Made by a program: the position numbers and the translations under genes. Positions 27,731 through 44,189 of a DNA stretch of 64,000 bases are shown one piece after another. The notes below the pieces were generated by a model. The model was not told where the DNA came from. It saw only the letters and a list, made by a program, of their open reading frames with translations, and ran no database searches. The stretch spans positions 372,001 through 436,000 of the forward strand of contig NZ_JANHDH010000001.1 in the NCBI RefSeq assembly GCF_026616195.1. Reading direction: 5' to 3'. Source of the DNA: Haloarchaeobius amylolyticus. Its GTDB lineage: Archaea > Halobacteriota > Halobacteria > Halobacteriales > Natrialbaceae. Each line of letters starts with the position of its first letter. Position 1 is the first letter of the stretch.

Positions 27731-28627
27731 TCAGTCGCGTTCGGTGCTGACGAGCCAGATGCCGGCTGCCATCACGACGCCCCCGGCGACGAAGCCGGCC
27801 CCGACCGACTCGTCGAGGACGAGCACGCCCAGTGCGGTCCCGACGACCGGCTGGACGAAGAAGAACACCGCGACGGTCCCGGCGTCGACCGACTCGACGC
27901 CGCGGTACCAGAGGTACCACGCGGCCGCCGTGGCCGCGACGCCGAGGTAGCCGACGGCCGCGACCCCGACCGGCCCCGGCAGGGCGGGCACGCCGACCAC
28001 GGCGAGTTCGGCGGCCGCGAACACCGCCATGATTGGCACCGCGGCGGCCGCCGAGTACGCGGTCGTCGCCAGCGCGGAGTACTCGCGCACGAGGGGCGTC
28101 CCGTGGATCGTGTACACCGCCCAGGCGACGCTGGCGACGACGAGGCCGAGGATGCCGAGCAGGCTCCCGCCCGCGAGCGCCGTGAAATCGTACTGGCCCG
28201 CGAGCACGACGACCGTGCCGAGGACCGCCAGCCCGACCCCGACGGCCCGGCGCCGGGTGACGGTCTCGCCGAGGACGAGCGCGCCCAGGGCGACGGTCGC
28301 GACCGGCGTCAGGATGGTGACGAGCGACCCCTGGCTGGCGTTCGTCAGGTCGGTCCCGACGAACTGCGTCACGAGCGTCAGCGCCACCCAGCCCGCGAGG
28401 GCGGCCACGCGCCGCCACTCCGAGCGCGGCAGGCGCTGGCCGTCGTACCACACCACGGGCAACAGCACCGCGGCGCCGAGGGCGACCCGCAGGAACGCGA
28501 GCGTCACCGGCGGGATGCTGGCGAAGCTCCACTCGCTGACGACGAACATCCCGCCCCAGAGGGCGGCGGCGGTGAGGGGAGCGAGCGCGAACGCGAGTCC
28601 GCGAACGCCCCGGAACACCTCACCCAC
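27731..28627 (-). CDS. EamA (DMT superfamily) exporter overlapping livF2
   Basis: A 298-aa membrane protein with ten predicted helices in two EamA repeats (LWGGMFVVSEWSFASIPPVT in the first, ILGLVVASVAWAVYTIHGTP in the second). The family exports amino acids and metabolites. It begins with GTG inside the last codons of livF2 (8-base overlap), so it is translated as the sixth gene of the liv2 operon. Importer and exporter in one transcript could adjust the pool of one amino acid. The substrate is not known. Confidence 0.88.
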   Translation of the reverse strand: MGEVFRGVRGLAFALAPLTAAALWGGMFVVSEWSFASIPPVTLAFLRVALGAAVLLPVVWYDGQRLPRSEWRRVAALAGWVALTLVTQFVGTDLTNASQGSLVTILTPVATVALGALVLGETVTRRRAVGVGLAVLGTVVVLAGQYDFTALAGGSLLGILGLVVASVAWAVYTIHGTPLVREYSALATTAYSAAAAVPIMAVFAAAELAVVGVPALPGPVGVAAVGYLGVAATAAAWYLWYRGVESVDAGTVAVFFFVQPVVGTALGVLVLDESVGAGFVAGGVVMAAGIWLVSTERD

Positions 28628-29333
28628 CGAGGTAGAGTCTGGACACTTCGGGGTTGTCGAGCAGGTCGCCGGCGCGGTCCTCGAACTCGACCGACCCCTG
28701 GTCGAGGACGTAGCCGCGGTCGGAGATGCCGAGCCCCTCCTTGGCGTTCTGTTCGACCATCAGGATTGCCGTCCCGAGTTCGTTGACCTTCTTCACGTTC
28801 TGGAAGACGTCCTGGACGATGTTCGGCGCGAGGCCGGCGCTCGGCTCGTCGATGAGGAGCACGTCCGGCTCCATGACGAGCGCCCGGGCGAGCGCCAGCA
28901 CCTGTCGCTGGCCGCCCGAGAGCGTCCGCGCCTTCGCCTCGCGCTTCTCCTCCAGTACGGGGAAGCGGTCGTAGAGGCCGTCGATGGTCGACTCCAGCCC
29001 GCTCTCCTTGGCGACGCCACCCATCCGCAGGTTCTCGTCGATGGTGAGCGACCCGAAGACGTTCTCGACCTGCGGGACGTAGCCGACGCCCTTGCGGACG
29101 AGGTCCTCGGGTGCGGTGTGGGTGATGTCGGTGTCACCGACCGTTATCTGGCCGGCCCAGGGGTCGAGCAGGCCGAAGACGGTCTTGAGGACGGTCGACT
29201 TGCCGGCCCCGTTCGGGCCGATGATGCAGACGATCTCGTCGGCGTCGACGTGCAGCGAGAGGTCGTAGAGGACCTGTGCCTCGCCGTAGCCCGAGTCGAC
29301 GCCCTGCACGTCGAGTGCGCGCTGGGCGCTCAT
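28620..29333 (-). CDS. livF: LivF-type ABC ATPase (liv2)
   Basis: A 237-aa cytoplasmic ATPase. Walker A is GPNGAGKST, the signature is LSGGQRQVLALARAL, Walker B is VLLIDEPSAGLAP, and the Gln of LMVEQNAKEGL follows. It overlaps livG2 by four bases and eamA by eight. It pairs with LivG2 to energise the separate LivH2 and LivM2 permeases. Confidence 0.94.
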   Translation of the reverse strand: MSAQRALDVQGVDSGYGEAQVLYDLSLHVDADEIVCIIGPNGAGKSTVLKTVFGLLDPWAGQITVGDTDITHTAPEDLVRKGVGYVPQVENVFGSLTIDENLRMGGVAKESGLESTIDGLYDRFPVLEEKREAKARTLSGGQRQVLALARALVMEPDVLLIDEPSAGLAPNIVQDVFQNVKKVNELGTAILMVEQNAKEGLGISDRGYVLDQGSVEFEDRAGDLLDNPEVSRLYLGG

Positions 29334-30139
29334 TCGCCACCTCCGAGGTACGCCTCGATGACACGTGGGTCGTTCCGGACCTCGTCGGGGGTGCCCTCCA
29401 TGAGGACCCGGCCCTGGTCGAGGACGATGATGGGGTCCGCGAGGTCCATGATGAACGGCATGTCGTGCTCGATGATGCAGAACGTCTGGCCCTCCTCGTT
29501 GAGTTCCCTGACGAAGCGCTTGATGTCGTTCGCCAGCGTCGGGTTGACGCCGGCGACCGGCTCGTCGAGCAACAGTACGTCCGGGTCGGTCGTGATGGCA
29601 CGCGCCAGCTCGACCAGTTTCAGCTGGCCGCCCGAGAGTTCGGTCGACGGCTGGTCGATGAGGTGGTCGATCTCGAAGCGTTCGAGCAGGTCGATGGCCT
29701 GGTCGATGTTGGCCGACTCCTCCTCGGTGACCGAACCGGGCGAGGTGAACAGCGAGACGACCGATTCACCCGCCTGCGGGCGCGGCCCGACCAGCATCGC
29801 CTCGCGCACCGTCATGCCCTCCAGTCGCCGGGGCGTCTGGAACGTCCGGACGAGCCCGGCCCGCGACACCTCGTAGGGCGGGTCGTCGGTGACCTCGTGG
29901 TCGTTGACGAACACCCGCCCGTCGTCGAGGTCGTAGAACCCCGAGACGAGGTTGAACAGCGTCGACTTGCCGGCGCCGTTCGGGCCGATGAGCCCCGTGA
30001 TGGAGCCACGTTCGACCTCCAGGGTCACGTCGTCGGTCGCCGTGAGGCCGCCGAAGGACTTCTTCAGACCCTCGGTCCGGAGGACCGGGTCGTCCTTGTT
30101 CAGCACCGCGCCGGAGTAGTCGAGTTCGTTCAGGCTCAC
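29330..30139 (-). CDS. livG: LivG-type ABC ATPase (liv2)
   Basis: A 269-aa cytoplasmic ATPase with Walker A GPNGAGKST, signature LSGGQLKLVELARAI, Walker B VLLLDEPVAGVNP and the switch His in CIIEHDMPFIM. It starts with GTG at 30139, overlapping the livM2 stop by four bases (GTGA). Unlike LivG1, it has a canonical LSGGQ signature. Confidence 0.94.
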   Translation of the reverse strand: MSLNELDYSGAVLNKDDPVLRTEGLKKSFGGLTATDDVTLEVERGSITGLIGPNGAGKSTLFNLVSGFYDLDDGRVFVNDHEVTDDPPYEVSRAGLVRTFQTPRRLEGMTVREAMLVGPRPQAGESVVSLFTSPGSVTEEESANIDQAIDLLERFEIDHLIDQPSTELSGGQLKLVELARAITTDPDVLLLDEPVAGVNPTLANDIKRFVRELNEEGQTFCIIEHDMPFIMDLADPIIVLDQGRVLMEGTPDEVRNDPRVIEAYLGGGE

Positions 30140-31185
30140 TGGTTCTCACCCTCGCTGGAGCGCCGGGCGCCGGGCCAGATGAGCTCCGACCGCGGCGGCA
30201 GCAGGCCGGCCGGCTTGAACCGGACGACCGTGATGATGAGCAGACCGATGAACAGCAGGCGCATCGACGCGAGGTCGAGCCCGGCGAACAGGGAGACGTC
30301 GCCGATGAAGCGCGTCCCCTCCAGGATGGCGATGAGGGTCATGCCACCCAGGATGGCCCCGCGGTTGCTCCCGGTCCCGCCCAGGATGACCGCGACCCAG
30401 ATGTAGAACGTGGTCAGGGGCACGAGGTCGGAGGGGTCGATGTAGAGGTTCACGTGGACGTAGAACGCCCCCGCGATGGCCATGATGATGCTCCCGAACA
30501 CGAACGCCTGCATCTTGAGGCTGAACGTGTTCTTGCCGAGGGCCTTCGCGAGGTCCTCGTCGGACCGGATGGTCCGGAGGACACGACCCCACGGCGAGCG
30601 CTGCATCCGACGCAACAGCAGGTAGACGGCCCCGATGAGCACCACGACGATGGCCAGGTTGGTCGCCTCCTGGGTCAGGGGCAGCCCTTCGAACAGGGTC
30701 GGGATGCCACTGATGCCGGAGCTGCCGGCCGTCCAGTCGCGCTCGTTCCGGATGACGAGGCGGATGACCTCCGCCAGCCCGAGGCTCGCGATGGCGAGGT
30801 AGTCCTCGCGCAGTTTGAGCGTCGGGATGCCGATGAGTATCGCGATGAGCGCGCTCACCACGATGGCGGTGAGGAACCCGAAGACCGGGTGCAGCCCCAG
30901 CTGGAGCGGTGAGTTCGGCGACGTGAGCAACGCCGTCGAGTACGCGCCGATGCCCCAGAACGCGGCGACGCTGAAGTTGATGAGGCCGGCGTAGCCCCAC
31001 TGGACGTTCAGCCCCATCGTGAGCAGGACCCACGAGCCGCCGAACGCCATGGTCCGCAACACGTAGGGGAGCTTGAGCACCCCGGCCGCGAGCAGCATGA
31101 GCACGAGTGCAGCAGCGATCGCGACCACCGTGACGGCGAGGCCGTCCTCCTCGACGGACTCGCGCATCGAATCGACGACGCTCAT
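30136..31185 (-). CDS. livM: LivM-type ABC permease (liv2)
   Basis: A 349-aa membrane permease. The family segment GLNVQWGYAGLINFSVAAFW is near residue 60, REDYLAIASLGLAEVIRLVI near 130, and the ATPase-coupling loop VILGGTGSNRGAILGG near 275. It overlaps livH2 by four bases. The normal, unfused length contrasts with the fused permease of liv1. Confidence 0.93.
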   Translation of the reverse strand: MSVVDSMRESVEEDGLAVTVVAIAAALVLMLLAAGVLKLPYVLRTMAFGGSWVLLTMGLNVQWGYAGLINFSVAAFWGIGAYSTALLTSPNSPLQLGLHPVFGFLTAIVVSALIAILIGIPTLKLREDYLAIASLGLAEVIRLVIRNERDWTAGSSGISGIPTLFEGLPLTQEATNLAIVVVLIGAVYLLLRRMQRSPWGRVLRTIRSDEDLAKALGKNTFSLKMQAFVFGSIIMAIAGAFYVHVNLYIDPSDLVPLTTFYIWVAVILGGTGSNRGAILGGMTLIAILEGTRFIGDVSLFAGLDLASMRLLFIGLLIITVVRFKPAGLLPPRSELIWPGARRSSEGENQ

Positions 31186-32141
31186 GCCGCATCACCCATG
31201 ATACCGCTGGGTCTGGCCAGCAGGATGGCGACCATCAGCAGGAACGCCACCGCGGGCGCGTAGTCGATGCTGAGCGGGATGCCGAAGGTGTCGAAGATGA
31301 GCGGCGTCAGCTCGTGGACCATCCCGATGACGAATCCACCGAGCATCGCGCCGTAGACGCTGCCGATTCCGCCGAGGATGACCGCGGCGAAGACGACCAG
31401 CAGGATGTCGAAGCCCATGCGCGGGCGGACGAGCGTCTCCAGGCCGAGGAAGACGCCGCCGGCCGCCGCGAGCGCCGCGCCGATGACCCACATCGCGAGG
31501 GTCACCTCGCGGGTCCGGATGCCGCTCACCCGGGCCAGCGAGGGGTTGTCCGCGGTCGCACGCATCTTCCGGCCCAGCGTCGTGTACTGGAGCAGCAGGT
31601 GCAGGCCGACGACGAGCACGAACGCGATGAACACGATGGCGATCTTCCGCGGCGTCACCGAGACGGAAAGCGCGTCCTGGATCGCCGGAATCGGCCCGGT
31701 CCGGGTCACGCCGTAGCGGGTACCGCCGGTCTCTAACGGACTCAGGTAGACCAGCGCCCGATAGGACAGCGCGACCCCGATGCTCGTGATGAGCAACTCG
31801 ATGGAGCCCGCGTCGGTGTTCTTCAGCGGCTCGTAGATGATGCGGTCCGTCGCGATCGCGACGACCGCCGCCAGCGCCATGCCGACGAGCAGCGCCGCGA
31901 AGAACCACGCCGGTAGCCCGAAGATGCCGGCGCTGCCGAGCATCGGCTTGAGGACGCCCGCGGTCGCCAGCGCGCCGAACGCGCCGACGGTCATCGTGTC
32001 GCCGTGGGCGAAGTTCGCGAAGTCGGCGATGCTGTAGACCAGCGAGAGGCCGATGGCCGCGAGCACGATGATGCTGCTGTACACCACGCCGTTGACGACG
32101 TACTGGAGCGGGTTGACGCTCACCTGCAGGACGAGGCTCAC
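31182..32141 (-). CDS. livH: LivH-type ABC permease (liv2)
   Basis: A permease of about 319 aa. It has the conserved VLAAIGLSLVYSIADFANFA, then HGDTM, and the coupling loop VILGGIGSVYGAMLGG. The start is uncertain: GTG codons at 32174, 32141 and 32123 are all in frame. The one at 32141 is preceded by a purine-rich GGGGGTCGG and gives a normal N-terminus (SLVLQVSVNPLQYVVNGVVY). The 55-base gap after the binding-protein gene is the only sizeable spacer in the operon. Confidence 0.9.
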   Translation of the reverse strand: MSLVLQVSVNPLQYVVNGVVYSSIIVLAAIGLSLVYSIADFANFAHGDTMTVGAFGALATAGVLKPMLGSAGIFGLPAWFFAALLVGMALAAVVAIATDRIIYEPLKNTDAGSIELLITSIGVALSYRALVYLSPLETGGTRYGVTRTGPIPAIQDALSVSVTPRKIAIVFIAFVLVVGLHLLLQYTTLGRKMRATADNPSLARVSGIRTREVTLAMWVIGAALAAAGGVFLGLETLVRPRMGFDILLVVFAAVILGGIGSVYGAMLGGFVIGMVHELTPLIFDTFGIPLSIDYAPAVAFLLMVAILLARPSGIMGDAA

Positions 32142-32195
32142 GCTACCGACCCCCGTACAGGCGTAGTCGAGCACGAAGCCGAGTCCCGTGTCATC

Positions 32196-33533
32196 TTAGC
32201 TCGTGATGTAGTCGCCGAAGTCGTACTCGTGGTTCGCGACGCTGTAGACCTGGTAGAACCCCGGCGGGTCGCCGTTCTCGTCGAGGTCGACCGGGCCACT
32301 GACGCCCTGGTAGTTGATGTCGCTCGGGCTGCCGCCGTCCTGGAGGATGGCTGCAGCCTCCTCGAAGGTGAACACCTCCTCACCGTCGGGGCGGGTCACG
32401 TCGCGGACGACCGACTCGATGCCCGAGCCGGTGAAGTCGTCCGCCGCGGTGACCGCGATGGCCGCGACCGTCACGGCGTCGTAGGCGTACGCGGACCAGA
32501 CGGTCGGGGACGCGTCGAACTCGCTCTCGAAGTCCGAGACGAAGGTCTGGTAGTTGTCCTGGGACGCCGGGGCGCTCTCGGTGATGCCCATCATGCCGTC
32601 GAGGCTGCCCTCGGGCGTGTTCGCGAGGATCTCGTCGGCGACGGTCGACTCCGCACCGAAGTAGTCGACCTGCTCGTTGTAGCCCTGGTCGAACGCGTTG
32701 TTGGCCATGACCGTGAACTCGTTCGCGTAGGTGAGGAAGAGCCACGCGCTGGCGTCCGTGCCGGCCATCTCCGCCAGCAGGCTGCTGTAGGTGGACTGGC
32801 CCTGGTCGTGCGGTTCGTTGTACGCCACGGTGCCGGAGAACTCGTCGGCGAAGACGCCCTGGAGGCCCTGCCCGTAGTCGTTGTTGATCCACGTCACGGC
32901 GACCGTGTCGTGGCCCTCGTCGGCGACGAACTGCGCGAGCGCCTTGCCCTTCGCGGCCCCACTCGGACTCATGCGGTTGAGGCCCTTGCGGGTCGTGAGC
33001 TCCGGACTCGTGGAGTTCTGGCTGATCTGGACCACGTCGTTGCCCTTCACGACGCTGTCGTAGATGGCGATGGAGACGCCACTGCCGACGGAGCCCAGCA
33101 GCAGCGGGACGCCGTCCTGGTTGACCAGTTTCGAGGCCGCGTTCACGCCCGCCTGGTTGGTACTCTCGTCGTCCTCGACGGAGATCTCGAGCGTGCCCTC
33201 GCCGTTCGGGCCGACGCCGACCTCGTTGATCTTCGAGAGGGCGAGCTCCTTGCCGCGCTTGTTGCGCTTGCCATAGGGTGCCAGCGAGCCGGTGAGCGAG
33301 TCCACCATCCCGATGGTGTAGGTGCTCATCCCGCCGTCGCCGCCGGAGCCGCCGTCGTCGCCGCCACCGCCGCCACCACCGCCCCCGCCATCGCCGCCGG
33401 AGCCACCGTCGTCACCGCCCTCGGTGTCCCCACCACTGCTCTCGAAACAGCCGGCGCTGAGCGCGGCTATCGAGACGCCTGTTCCCATCAGTATCTCTCT
33501 GCGTGACAATCTGCGATTCGTATCTGATTGCAT
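32196..33533 (-). CDS. livJ: Branched-chain-type ABC substrate-binding lipoprotein (liv2)
   Basis: A 445-aa extracellular binding protein. The twin-arginine signal RREILMGTGVSIAALSAGC is followed by an unusual tether of about 35 residues made almost only of Gly and Asp. The Peripla_BP_6 domain then begins YTIGMVDSLTGSLAPYGKRN. It heads the liv2 operon. Divergent transcription from proline dehydrogenase, 141 bases away, suggests amino acids as cargo, but the ligand pocket cannot be read from sequence alone. ATG at 33533 is preferred over one 15 bases upstream because of the promoter spacing to the GGTTAAGG element at about 33565-33572. Confidence 0.92.
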   Translation of the reverse strand: MQSDTNRRLSRREILMGTGVSIAALSAGCFESSGGDTEGGDDGGSGGDGGGGGGGGGGDDGGSGGDGGMSTYTIGMVDSLTGSLAPYGKRNKRGKELALSKINEVGVGPNGEGTLEISVEDDESTNQAGVNAASKLVNQDGVPLLLGSVGSGVSIAIYDSVVKGNDVVQISQNSTSPELTTRKGLNRMSPSGAAKGKALAQFVADEGHDTVAVTWINNDYGQGLQGVFADEFSGTVAYNEPHDQGQSTYSSLLAEMAGTDASAWLFLTYANEFTVMANNAFDQGYNEQVDYFGAESTVADEILANTPEGSLDGMMGITESAPASQDNYQTFVSDFESEFDASPTVWSAYAYDAVTVAAIAVTAADDFTGSGIESVVRDVTRPDGEEVFTFEEAAAILQDGGSPSDINYQGVSGPVDLDENGDPPGFYQVYSVANHEYDFGDYITS

Positions 33534-33575
33534 GACGAACTGTCCCACGGTACCACGAGGCGATGGTTAAGGTGG

Positions 33576-33595
33576 GTCCCGACCATGGTCGGGAC
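33576..33595. promoter_or_regulatory. 20-bp perfect palindrome between liv2 and putA promoters
   Basis: GTCCCGACCATGGTCGGGAC equals its reverse complement over all 20 bases. It lies immediately upstream of the liv2 TATA/BRE element and about 50 bases upstream of the putA TATA box, a position where archaeal activators or repressors of divergent promoters bind. The regulator is not encoded next to it. Confidence 0.65.
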
Positions 33596-33643
33596 TCATT
33601 TTCGTTCGTGAACGTTCTGCTGAAACGTATGGTCGGGTGGTGA

Positions 33644-33649
33644 TTTAGG
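33644..33649 (+). promoter_or_regulatory. Probable TATA box of proline dehydrogenase
   Basis: TTTAGG within GTGATTTAGGGG is centred about 28 bases before the ATG at 33675, the distance expected for a leaderless transcript. Confidence 0.45.
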
Positions 33650-33674
33650 GGGGTAGTTCCCCGAGTGTCGTGGT

Positions 33675-34514
33675 ATGATACCGCCTATCGCATCGAACTT
33701 CGTCGCGGGCGAGACACCCGCCGCCGCCATCGAGCACGCCGAACAGACCTCGACGCGTGACGTGGGCTGCATCCTGAACCTGCTCGGCGAGCACTACGAG
33801 GAGCGCCCGCCCGCGGACGCGGACGCCGACGAATACGTCGAGCTGGTCGCCGACATCGCAACCAGTCCGGCGACGGCGTGCGTCTCCGTCAAGCCGTCCC
33901 AGATCGGGCTCGACCTCGGCGACGACGTGTTCGCGGAGAACTTAGAACGCATCGCGATGGCCGGCGCCGAGCACGACGTGTTCGTCTGGGTCGACATGGA
34001 GGACCACACGACCACGGACGCGACGCTGGACGCGGTCGAGGAACTCGGGCACGCGACCGACGGGAACGTCGGCGTCTGCGTGCAGGCGAACCTCAAGCGC
34101 ACGCCCGAGGACCTCGAACGCCTCGCCGAGGTCCCGGGGAAGGTCCGCCTCGTGAAGGGCGCCTACGACGAACCGAAGTCGGTCGCGTACAAGAAGAAGG
34201 CCCGCGTGGACGAGCAGTACCGCGACCTGCTGGAGTACATGTTCCGGGAGTTCGACGACGGCGTCGCCGTCGGCAGCCACGACCCAGAGATGATCTCGTT
34301 CGCGCGCGACCTCCACGCCGAGTACGGCACCCCCTACGAGGTGCAGATGCTCATGGGCGTGCGCGAGAGCGCGCAGTTCGACCTCGCCAGCGACGACGTC
34401 GAGGTCTGGCAGTACGTCCCCTACGGCGACAAGTGGTTCCAGTACTTCTACCGCCGGGTCCGCGAGCGCAAGTCGAACGCCCTGTTCGCGCTGCGGGCCG
34501 TGCTGACCGGGTAG
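33675..34514 (+). CDS. putA: Proline dehydrogenase
   Basis: A 279-aa FAD-dependent enzyme that oxidises L-proline to pyrroline-5-carboxylate and passes electrons to the membrane chain. The TIM-barrel motifs are in place: CVSVKPSQIGLDLG, VFVWVDMEDHTTTD, VCVQANLKRTPEDL, VRLVKGAYDEP and the C-terminal YVPYGDKWFQYFYRRVRERK that carries substrate-binding Arg residues. The length is that of the short monofunctional form (about 280-310 aa), without the P5C dehydrogenase half. It is divergent from the liv2 importer across a perfect palindrome, so proline or a related amino acid could be imported and oxidised together. Confidence 0.93.
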   Translation: MIPPIASNFVAGETPAAAIEHAEQTSTRDVGCILNLLGEHYEERPPADADADEYVELVADIATSPATACVSVKPSQIGLDLGDDVFAENLERIAMAGAEHDVFVWVDMEDHTTTDATLDAVEELGHATDGNVGVCVQANLKRTPEDLERLAEVPGKVRLVKGAYDEPKSVAYKKKARVDEQYRDLLEYMFREFDDGVAVGSHDPEMISFARDLHAEYGTPYEVQMLMGVRESAQFDLASDDVEVWQYVPYGDKWFQYFYRRVRERKSNALFALRAVLTG

Positions 34515-36309: not shown

Positions 36310-37056
36310 TCAGTTCGAGTCCGGGTCCAGAAGCTTCGACTCCGCCTTCCGGAGGTGCTCCAGCAGCGTCGTCTTCGAGACGTCGAGTTCGGCGGCGAGT
36401 TCGCGGGTCGAGACGCCGCGGGGCCACTGGTAGTAGCCGCGTTCGCGGGCGTGCTCGAACACCTCGCGCTGGGTGTCCGTCAGCGAGTCCATCCGCCAGC
36501 GCTTCTCGTTCAGGGGCGTGTCGAACGAGGTGATGCTCGCGACCTCGATGTCGGCGCCGGCCTCGTCGCGGACCGCGTCGAGTTCGGGTTCGACCTGGTC
36601 TCTGGTGCCGGAGAAGACGACCTGCCAGAACTCGCGCCCGCCCTCGATGCGGCAGGGGGCGTTGTGGACGAACCCGTGCTTGAGCAGCGTCGGGCACACC
36701 ATGTCCCGGGGGTGGTAGTCGAGGAAGAACTCGCGGGCGACGTTCCCGGGTGTCGTCGACTGGCCGGCGTAGTCGAAGCGCTCCTGGAGTTCGTGGACCT
36801 CGCCCGTGAGCCGGGACGCCTCGATGGTCGCGAGCAGTTCCTCGACCTCGCCGGTGGTCTCGCCGTAGGCGGTGAACAGCCCCCTGACGGTCTGGTCGAC
36901 GGTGCCGTCCGGCCCGTCGTAGATGGCGTGGGCGATGACCCCACCCGCCACCTCGTCGGTCGATTCACACGCCCAGCAGTTCGGGTGCCACAGGTCGAGC
37001 GTCAGCCGCGTGCCCTGGAACGTCCCCTCGTCGTTCGGCCCCACTGTCCCTGACAT
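36310..37056 (-). CDS. Bacterio-opsin-activator-type HTH regulator
   Basis: A 248-aa transcription factor. The C-terminus has the HTH_10 domain: LTDTQREVFEHARERGYYQ, then STRELAAELDVSKTTLLEHL (about residues 185-240). The N-terminal sensor half contains HPNCWACES, and MVCPTLLKHGFVHNAPC further on: four Cys and several His that could bind a metal or a redox cofactor. Haloarchaea use dozens of such regulators for light, oxygen and metabolite responses; the target here is not known. It starts 110 bases from the Xaa-Pro dipeptidase gene end on the same strand. Confidence 0.9.
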   Translation of the reverse strand: MSGTVGPNDEGTFQGTRLTLDLWHPNCWACESTDEVAGGVIAHAIYDGPDGTVDQTVRGLFTAYGETTGEVEELLATIEASRLTGEVHELQERFDYAGQSTTPGNVAREFFLDYHPRDMVCPTLLKHGFVHNAPCRIEGGREFWQVVFSGTRDQVEPELDAVRDEAGADIEVASITSFDTPLNEKRWRMDSLTDTQREVFEHARERGYYQWPRGVSTRELAAELDVSKTTLLEHLRKAESKLLDPDSN

Positions 37057-37166: not shown

Positions 37167-38276
37167 TCAGAGCGGTTCCCACGTCCGCGGCGACTGGTTG
37201 AGTCGCTCGCAGCCGTCCGCGGTGACGACGATGAGGTCCTCGATGCGGACGCCGAACTCGCCGTCGAGGTAGATGCCGGGCTCGACCGAGAACACCATCC
37301 CCGGTTCGAGTTCGAGGTCGTTCCCCTCGACGATGTAGGGCGGTTCGTGCACGTCGAGGCCGACGCCGTGGCCGGTCCGGTGGATGAACTGCTCGCCGTA
37401 GCCCGCCTCCTCGATGACCTCGCGGGCGGCGCGGTCGACCGCCTGTGCCTCGACGCCCGGTTCGACCGCCGCCACGCCCGCCTCCAGTGCGTCGCGGACG
37501 ATGGCGTGGACCGCCTCGAACCGGTCCGGGGGGTCGCCCGCGAAGACGACGGTCCGGGTCTGGTCGCCGGGGTAGTGGTCGACGTACGCCCCGAAGTCCA
37601 GCACGACGGGGTCCCCGCGCTGAATCTCGCGGTCGCCGTGGCTGTGGTGGGGTTTCGCGCCGTTCGGCCCCGAGCCGGCGATGACGTCGAACGCGAGGCC
37701 GTCGCCACCCATGCCCGCGAGGGTCGACTCGACCTCCTCGGCGAGTTCGCGCTCGGTCAGCCCGATGGCCGCGCTCCCGAGCTTGCGGACCTCCTCGCTC
37801 GCCTGGTCGGCCACCTCGGCGGCCCGCCGGAGGGCGTCGAGTTCGGTCTCGTCCTTGCGCAGGCGCAGGTCGTCGAACACCTCGCTGGCCAGCCCGAAGG
37901 TCGCCTCGGGCAGGGCGGCCTCGAGGTCCTGCGTGAACAGCGCCCACATCGTGTCGTCGACGAGGAGGTGCCGGCCCCAGAGGTCGAGTTCCTCGGCGAC
38001 GGTCTCGACCGCCGCGACGGGGTCGTCGCCGTCGCCCCACGTTCTGACATCTGTGACCCACGACTCGTCGCGGATCTGGGAGGCGTACAGCTCCGGGACG
38101 AGGAAGACCGGGTCGCCGGTCGCGGGGACGAACAGGAACAGGTGGCGCTCGGCCGGTTCCTCGTGGAACCCGCTCGCGTAGTACAGGTTCGGACTGGGGA
38201 ACAGTACGGCGGCGGCCGCGTCGACCGATTCGAGACGGTCCTGACACGCACGCGCTCGTCGCTCGAAGTCGTTCAT
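37167..38276 (-). CDS. Xaa-Pro dipeptidase/aminopeptidase (M24B)
   Basis: A 369-aa cytoplasmic metallopeptidase that cleaves peptides next to proline. All five metal ligands of M24B are visible: Asp in VVLDFGAYVDH, Asp in YPGDQTRTVVF, His in RTGHGVGLDVHE, Glu in FSVEPGIYLDG and Glu in VRIEDLIVV. The N-terminal creatinase domain includes FPSPNLYYASGFHEEPAE. ATG at 38276 (MNDFERRARACQ) is taken rather than one 24 bases upstream. It is a useful intact comparison for the altered M24 protein at 20001. Confidence 0.93.
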   Translation of the reverse strand: MNDFERRARACQDRLESVDAAAAVLFPSPNLYYASGFHEEPAERHLFLFVPATGDPVFLVPELYASQIRDESWVTDVRTWGDGDDPVAAVETVAEELDLWGRHLLVDDTMWALFTQDLEAALPEATFGLASEVFDDLRLRKDETELDALRRAAEVADQASEEVRKLGSAAIGLTERELAEEVESTLAGMGGDGLAFDVIAGSGPNGAKPHHSHGDREIQRGDPVVLDFGAYVDHYPGDQTRTVVFAGDPPDRFEAVHAIVRDALEAGVAAVEPGVEAQAVDRAAREVIEEAGYGEQFIHRTGHGVGLDVHEPPYIVEGNDLELEPGMVFSVEPGIYLDGEFGVRIEDLIVVTADGCERLNQSPRTWEPL

Positions 38277-38432
38277 GCCACCACGTAGGTCAGGGTGCAT
38301 GAAGTAGTTCCTGTGTACCGGTTTCTCGGATGTGATGTCGCGGTGTGGAGTCGGCCGGGACGTGGCATCGAAACGTACGCTTCCATGCCGATGGGGGAAC
38401 GACTTTCACCACTCCCGGCAACAATTACGACC

Positions 38433-43217: not shown

Positions 43218-44189
43218 ATGCATATGCCCGCTATCGAGACGACCGCCCTGACCAAACGCTTCGGCGACGACGTCGTCGCCGTCGACTCCCTCGACCTCCG
43301 CGTGGAGGAGGGGGAGATATTCGGCTTCCTCGGCCCCAACGGCGCCGGGAAGTCGACGACCATCAACATGCTGCTCGACTTCCACCGACCTACCTCCGGG
43401 TCGGCGACCGTCCTGGGCTACGACGCCCAGGCGGAGGTCGACGAGATCCGCCAGCGCGTCGGCGTCCTCGCCGAGGGGCTGGAACTGTACGACCGCCTCA
43501 CCGCCAGAGAGCACCTCGAACTCTGCGTCCAGATGAAAGAGGCGAGCGACGACCCCGACGCGGTCCTCCACCGGGTCGGCCTCGACGACGCCAAGGACCG
43601 CAAGGTCGGCGGCTACTCCAAGGGGATGCAACAGCGCCTCGCGCTCGGGATGGCCCTCGTCGGCGACCCCGACCTCGTCATCCTCGACGAGCCCTCCTCC
43701 GGGCTCGACCCCAACGGCATCCAGCACATGCGCGACATCCTCCGCGAGGAGGCCGCAGGCGGGACGACCGTCTTCTTCTCCAGTCACATCCTCTCGGAGG
43801 TCGAGGCGGTCTGTGACCGCGTCGGTATCATGTCCGAGGGGGAACTCGTGACCGTCGACACCATCGACAACCTGCGCTCGCAGTCCGGCGACGCGGGCGA
43901 GGTCGAACTCACTGTCGAGGCCGTGCCCGAGGGCATCCGCGGCCGGCTCGAACGACTGGAGGGCATCACGAACGTCCACATCGAGGACGACGAGGTGACC
44001 GCGTACTGCAACAGCGGGACGGCGAAGATGGCCGCCATCCGGACAGTGGACGACGCCGCCACCGTGACGGACGTGGTCGCCACCGAGACCTCCCTCGAGG
44101 AGCTGTTCAACCAGTACACCGGCGGTGGCCGCGACGGCGACGTCGAGGAGCGTGGCGAACCTGCCGAGGAGATGGAGGTGCCGGCATGA
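43218..44189 (+). CDS. ABC-2 exporter ATPase
   Basis: A 323-aa cytoplasmic ATPase. Walker A is GPNGAGKST, the signature is YSKGMQQRLALGMAL, Walker B is LVILDEPSSGLDP, and the switch His lies in FFSSHILSEVEA. The C-terminal third (from about 215) is the usual accessory domain of Nod/CcmA-like subunits, ending in an acidic tail. Codons at 43206, 43218 and 43224 are all ATG in frame; promoter spacing favours 43218. It overlaps the permease gene by four bases. Confidence 0.93.
   Translation: MHMPAIETTALTKRFGDDVVAVDSLDLRVEEGEIFGFLGPNGAGKSTTINMLLDFHRPTSGSATVLGYDAQAEVDEIRQRVGVLAEGLELYDRLTAREHLELCVQMKEASDDPDAVLHRVGLDDAKDRKVGGYSKGMQQRLALGMALVGDPDLVILDEPSSGLDPNGIQHMRDILREEAAGGTTVFFSSHILSEVEAVCDRVGIMSEGELVTVDTIDNLRSQSGDAGEVELTVEAVPEGIRGRLERLEGITNVHIEDDEVTAYCNSGTAKMAAIRTVDDAATVTDVVATETSLEELFNQYTGGGRDGDVEERGEPAEEMEVPA

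Follow-up and report, generated by a model that had tools for sequence, protein, structure and literature searches.

A conserved palindromic site between the divergent genes of a liv-type transporter and a proline dehydrogenase (proDH) is probably the operator (i.e., the upstream activating site) of an HTH_10 regulator encoded at 36310-37056, which would coordinate liv uptake with proline oxidation. This reading was obtained by comparing the window (the whole stretch of DNA analyzed here, 64,000 nucleotides, to which all coordinates refer unless stated otherwise) with related loci and genomes.

The palindrome and its locus

The features of the locus are as follows.

33576-33595, no strand assigned: perfect 20-bp palindrome, proposed operator, with the core CCGACCATGGTCGG at 33579-33592 and two facing TGGTCGG half-sites
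33567-33570, minus strand: liv TATA-like element TTAA, 15 bases from the first base (33585) of the minus-strand half-site
33630-33637, plus strand: single half-site of proDH, TGGTCGGG, aligned with 51 relatives
33644-33647, plus strand: proDH TATA-like element TTTA, at +14 to +17 of the half-site
33675-34514, plus strand: proDH, 279 aa (PF01619; E 3.5e-29)
32196-33533, minus strand: liv-type substrate-binding protein (PF13458; E 2.9e-34), with the start at the ATG read in the sequence
31182-32174, minus strand: liv-type permease (PF02653)
30136-31185, minus strand: liv-type permease (PF02653)
29330-30139, minus strand: liv-type ATPase, LivG-like (PF00005 and PF12399)
28620-29333, minus strand: liv-type ATPase, LivF-like (PF00005)
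36310-37056, minus strand: HTH_10 (Bat-type) regulator, 248 aa, proposed reader of the operator (PF04967; E 1.4e-20)
37167-38300, minus strand: M24 peptidase, prolidase-like, directly upstream of the regulator (PF00557)

In the minus-strand operon, the liv-type binding protein is accompanied by two permeases and two ATPases. The best NCBIfam match of the M24 peptidase was Xaa-Pro dipeptidase, below the cut-off; a prolidase-like enzyme beside the regulator would fit a supply of proline from peptides.

The sequence GTCCCGACCATGGTCGGGAC at 33576-33595 is a perfect self-complementary 20-mer that stands between the start codons of the liv binding protein (minus strand, ATG at 33533) and proDH (plus strand, ATG at 33675). 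The original prediction had placed it between divergent promoters, beside the liv TATA region, and had judged it unlikely to arise by chance. The sequence agrees on each point: TTAA (33570-33567, minus strand) is directly adjacent, and perfect palindromes of at least 20 bases appeared in only 1 of 20,000 shuffles of the 138-base intergenic stretch (33537-33674). Under a first-order Markov model built on the window as a whole, 0.275 such palindromes would be expected per 64 kb, while 2 were observed. The other one, CGGCGACGACGTCGTCGCCG at 43262-43281, lies within predicted open frames and looks like codon repetition, being built of repeated CGACGTCG-like letters.

A scan of the whole genome (4,608,248 bases) for the 20-mer, as proposed with the original prediction, returned a single perfect place and two places with 3 mismatches. 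When the core was searched with up to 1 mismatch, there were 6 forward and 7 reverse matches, compared with 7 and 6 for a reversed control, and all eight other core places were within long open frames. A large regulon in the source genome was therefore rejected. The combination of half-site and TATA (TGGTMGGGT N4-8 TTWA) occurred at a single place, upstream of proDH. The regulator gene, the M24 peptidase gene, and the aldehyde dehydrogenase (ALDH) orthologue (85%) of the source genome had no site upstream. By this strict measure, the regulon in the source genome is small, with the core present only in the liv/proDH intergenic region.

Conservation and promoter spacing in relatives

The window is haloarchaeal, and the proDH relatives found in our search were, judging by their titles, all haloarchaeal as well. 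Among the best 80 of 121 proDH loci, compared with 3-kb flanks, the conserved part of the site was a 14-base core (CC[GT]ACCATGGT[CA]GG) composed of two facing copies of TGGTMGG. In these loci, the density of TGGTMGG reached 5.8 per kb within the 200 bases that precede proDH, compared with 0.55 per kb in the flanks. The palindrome CC[GT]ACCATGG[AT][CA]GG or a near form (≤2 mismatches) preceded the liv binding protein in all 28 loci carrying the orthologous gene; a lack of conservation in relatives was the result that the original prediction had named as fatal to itself. In Haloarcula, the palindrome moved together with liv, while proDH retained only a half-site: the palindrome is about 1.1 kb from proDH, beside liv, in five loci (L019, L021, L022, L027, and L031) and about 350 bases away in L023.

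In the nearest sister genome (G005), proDH (92% identical) lies beside the genes of the binding protein (88%) and the HTH_10 regulator (89%). Between the two genomes, the core is fully kept (14/14), as are the two TATA regions (16/16), and the half-site region at 33622-33638 is nearly so (16/17); the 20-mer as a whole (17/20) and the rest of the intergenic stretch (71/94) are less well kept. The 20-base palindrome originally taken as the unit is thus real, but its full perfection is incidental, and the 14-base core is the unit that sequence conservation picks out.

The site also recurs specifically at genes of the pathway. Palindromes with at most 1 mismatch numbered 63 across the best 80 of 121 loci, and all of them fell in the 44,324 bases before proDH, binding-protein, HTH_10, ALDH, or SNF-transporter genes, with none in the other 480,567 bases; a reversed-pattern control had none in either fraction. 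The exact 14-mer was present in 61 of 292 genomes of the class, compared with 9 of 292 for the reversed control (tallied by eye), a count that is not independent of that for the 80 loci because the two sets may share species. Thirty places of the exact 14-mer were examined, and 24 adjoin pathway or regulator genes; 4 have no pathway gene and overlap long open frames, and 2 have only HTH_10 paralogues.

Each promoter has its own site in an equal register. In all 29 liv palindromes that were aligned (28 loci and the window), position +15 is A or T and position +17 is A. For the lone proDH half-sites, which lie 43 to 49 bases before the proDH start, +17 (the TATA box) is occupied by A in 51 of the 52 sites aligned (51 loci plus the window). 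This common register indicates that the palindrome belongs to liv and that proDH has a separate half-site, at 33630, which the original prediction overlooked in assigning the palindrome to both promoters. Its broader proposal, joint control of amino acid import and proline oxidation, is well supported at the sequence level by the conserved site, the spacing to both TATA boxes, and the further pathway genes. As expected of an archaeal upstream activating site, the sites in these alignments keep a constant distance just upstream of BRE/TATA at several promoters. The TATA boxes of both promoters are weak (TTTAGG and TTAACC).

In various relatives, the palindrome also precedes a linked ALDH gene, other transporter genes, or the regulator gene, and in some genomes the site stands before the HTH_10 gene itself. 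In loci that lack liv, the ALDH or an SNF-family transporter may take the place of the divergent gene. The linked ALDH (about 65 to 100% identical to the two queries used) is probably P5C dehydrogenase, an assignment made from linkage and from the available portion of PMC6801745 and not from family cut-offs. Among ALDH genes at least 65% identical, roughly 27 of 44 loci had the palindrome (≤2 mismatches), a rough count made by eye, since the query start is probably too early in some loci and shifts the stretch searched. Haloferax ALDH genes had no palindrome in the upstream stretch that was tested. Three loci (L163, L180, and L181) have HTH_10 orthologues (57%), and the palindrome there lies next to another gene of binding-protein size (about 445 aa; 27% identical in L163 and L181 and undetected in L180). 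In these loci, the regulator appears to have switched to a different transporter.

The HTH_10 protein and its linkage to the site

The protein encoded at 36310-37056 carries a C-terminal HTH_10 domain (PF04967) at residues 192-243, scored at 73.3 bits against a curated cut-off of 23.1. Pfam found only this domain in the 248-aa protein, and neither the PAS nor the GAF domain that precede the associated domain and the HTH in Bat proper. Across an alignment of 37 orthologues, W-H-P-x-C-W is invariant close to the N terminus, and the HTH is conserved. Modeling with AlphaFold2 (31 sequences; mean pLDDT, 83.7) gave two successive beta-alpha-beta-beta-alpha-beta folds and the HTH. Its best match among solved structures was Thermoplasma Ta1207 (5m86; Z, 10.4; rmsd, 3.4; 144 residues aligned), while a match to prephenate dehydratase (Z, 7.0; rmsd, 3.3; 74 aligned) was, like the remaining matches, within background. 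The Pfam ACT domain had no match in the protein. An amino-acid-binding, ACT-like role for the N-terminal folds would be attractive in a regulator of proline use but is only a tentative suggestion.

An HTH_10 gene was present within the 3-kb flanks of proDH in 47 of the best 80 of 121 loci. When co-occurrence was scored in the same loci for a half-site at -50 to -42 and a linked HTH_10 gene, 45 had both, 27 had neither, 2 had only the HTH_10 gene, and 6 had only the half-site. Both loci with only the HTH_10 gene have a half-site with one mismatch. For the six with only the half-site, genome-wide searches found an HTH_10 relative in every case (60 to 66% identical in five and 44% in L072). In L015, L055, L060, L072, and L082, the coordinates of an HTH_10 match are just outside the fetched flank, and location on the same contig is deduced from those coordinates; in L055 and L060, this neighboring match is one of 45% identity. 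Conversely, four genomes (G012, G015, G016, and G022) have no half-site at the fetched proDH copy yet encode an HTH_10 protein of 56 to 64% identity. The palindrome lies beside that gene in G015, G016, and G022; none was found beside it in G012.

The co-occurrence of regulator and site in these sequences is partly due to shared descent. On the proDH tree, the motif needs 6 changes and linkage needs 9, and about 4 independent pairs agree and 0 oppose (sign test, P = 0.125, below significance).

When the HTH_10 protein that neighbors proDH in Halobiforma was used as the query against the source genome, the 36310-37056 protein was the best match (59%; E 7.8e-91), and two other HTH_10 proteins were 44 to 45% identical to the same query. 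In total, 58 HTH_10 matches in the genome exceed the family cut-off, which amounts to a large expansion of the family within a single archaeon. In other genomes (L165 2259, L168 1419, and L188 1501), the palindrome stands just upstream of HTH_10 paralogues that share only about 44 to 45% identity with the window regulator, suggesting that one operator is read by several HTH_10 subfamilies.

Proposed mechanism, alternatives, and known systems

We propose that a dimer of the regulator, which is encoded 2.7 kb away from the palindrome, would occupy both of the facing TGGTMGG half-sites just before the liv BRE/TATA and that the same protein would bind the lone half-site in the equal position at the proDH promoter. 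The bound regulator would recruit the transcription machinery when proline, P5C, or perhaps a related amino acid is present. Uptake by liv, which may carry proline, and proline oxidation would thereby be switched on together. Activation is preferred to repression on account of the position of the site, the weak TATA boxes, and the behavior of the related NarO and DmsR, as far as the available descriptions of these go.

Repression, in which a protein would block the access of transcription factors to BRE/TATA until freed by proline, is an unlikely arrangement in our estimation. The site does abut the BRE region, and a bulky protein bound there could interfere with assembly, but it is upstream of BRE/TATA and the start and not over them, and TATA boxes as weak as TTTAGG and TTAACC fit a need for activation. 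The characterized short relatives, NarO and DmsR, are moreover described as activators in the available part of PMC11218638. It is rather improbable that the site is a genuine operator of the same gene set but is read by a different protein (an HTH_10 paralogue or an Lrp-type regulator), with the linked HTH_10 protein acting elsewhere. With 58 HTH_10 matches in the genome, including two that are rather similar to the candidate, another paralogue could be the binder, and similar palindromes precede HTH_10 paralogues in other genomes. Against this, of the 47 loci in which an HTH_10 gene is linked (best 80 of 121), 45 have the half-site and the other two are one mismatch away, and an unsystematic look at the loci revealed no further regulator family that recurs there.

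A palindrome without any regulatory role is highly improbable. GC-rich genomes yield some palindromes, and the window itself has one other perfect 20-mer, but we rejected chance on the shuffle result, and the core is conserved across haloarchaeal families. An RNA hairpin or terminator was likewise rejected, because neither mRNA should include a site that lies upstream of both TATA boxes.

Activation by the linked HTH_10 protein, the reading that we favor, has parallels in haloarchaea. At the bop promoter of a haloarchaeon, an upstream activating sequence is read by Bat; it resembles the present site in lying directly upstream of BRE/TATA but differs in sequence and in the genes controlled. NarO and DmsR are short Bat-type HTH proteins that, in the available text of PMC11218638, act as activators in haloarchaea. 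Compared by description, they resemble the window regulator in having a Bat-type HTH without PAS/GAF and in activating a pathway. Their pathway is anaerobic respiration, whereas the window group is linked to proline catabolism and has the conserved N-terminal WHPxCW and two ferredoxin/ACT-like folds in its model. As far as the accessible descriptions go, the bacterial proteins PutA (N-terminal RHH repressor) and PutR (Lrp type; Caulobacter) are also regulators tied to proline catabolism, but their DNA-binding domains are unrelated, and the candidate is an HTH_10 protein separate from the enzyme.

In Haloferax volcanii, HVO_1191 (ProDH) and HVO_1189 (P5CDH-like, probable P5CDH), a gene pair of the same pathway, were raised together on alanine relative to ammonium (PMC6801745). 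The portion of that source available to us leaves the signal for this rise unclear and names no operator or regulator. The numbering from HVO_1189 to HVO_1191 would leave room for an HTH_10 gene between them, as in the Haloferax loci compared here. We found no description of the operator or of a haloarchaeal proline regulator in the open-license literature, subscription journals being largely outside the search.

To our knowledge, haloarchaeal genomes each encode dozens of HTH_10 regulators, few of which have a known site or signal. The present proposal assigns to one HTH_10 group a precise operator and a likely pathway across many species, Haloferax among them, and the locus offers a natural comparison of palindrome and half-site at a fixed TATA spacing. 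It is possible, though only tentatively so, that there is a class-wide haloarchaeal proline regulon in which a Bat-type HTH_10 protein with paired ACT-like domains as its N-terminal half senses proline or P5C directly and the operator CC[GT]ACCATGGT[CA]GG acts as a palindrome at some promoters and as a half-site at others. If true, this would be a branch that senses amino acids within a family of regulators hitherto linked with oxygen, light, and respiration.

The source genome holds a second proDH gene (C1:1787074), which has no TGGTMGG half-site. For the second proDH copy of the genus (L008, L010, L131, L134, and L137), other conserved promoter elements replace the TGGTMGG sites, namely, an inverted repeat (GTTTAC-N7-GTAAAC) upstream of most of these genes and the stretch GGTACATCAATCCTCTTGTACC.
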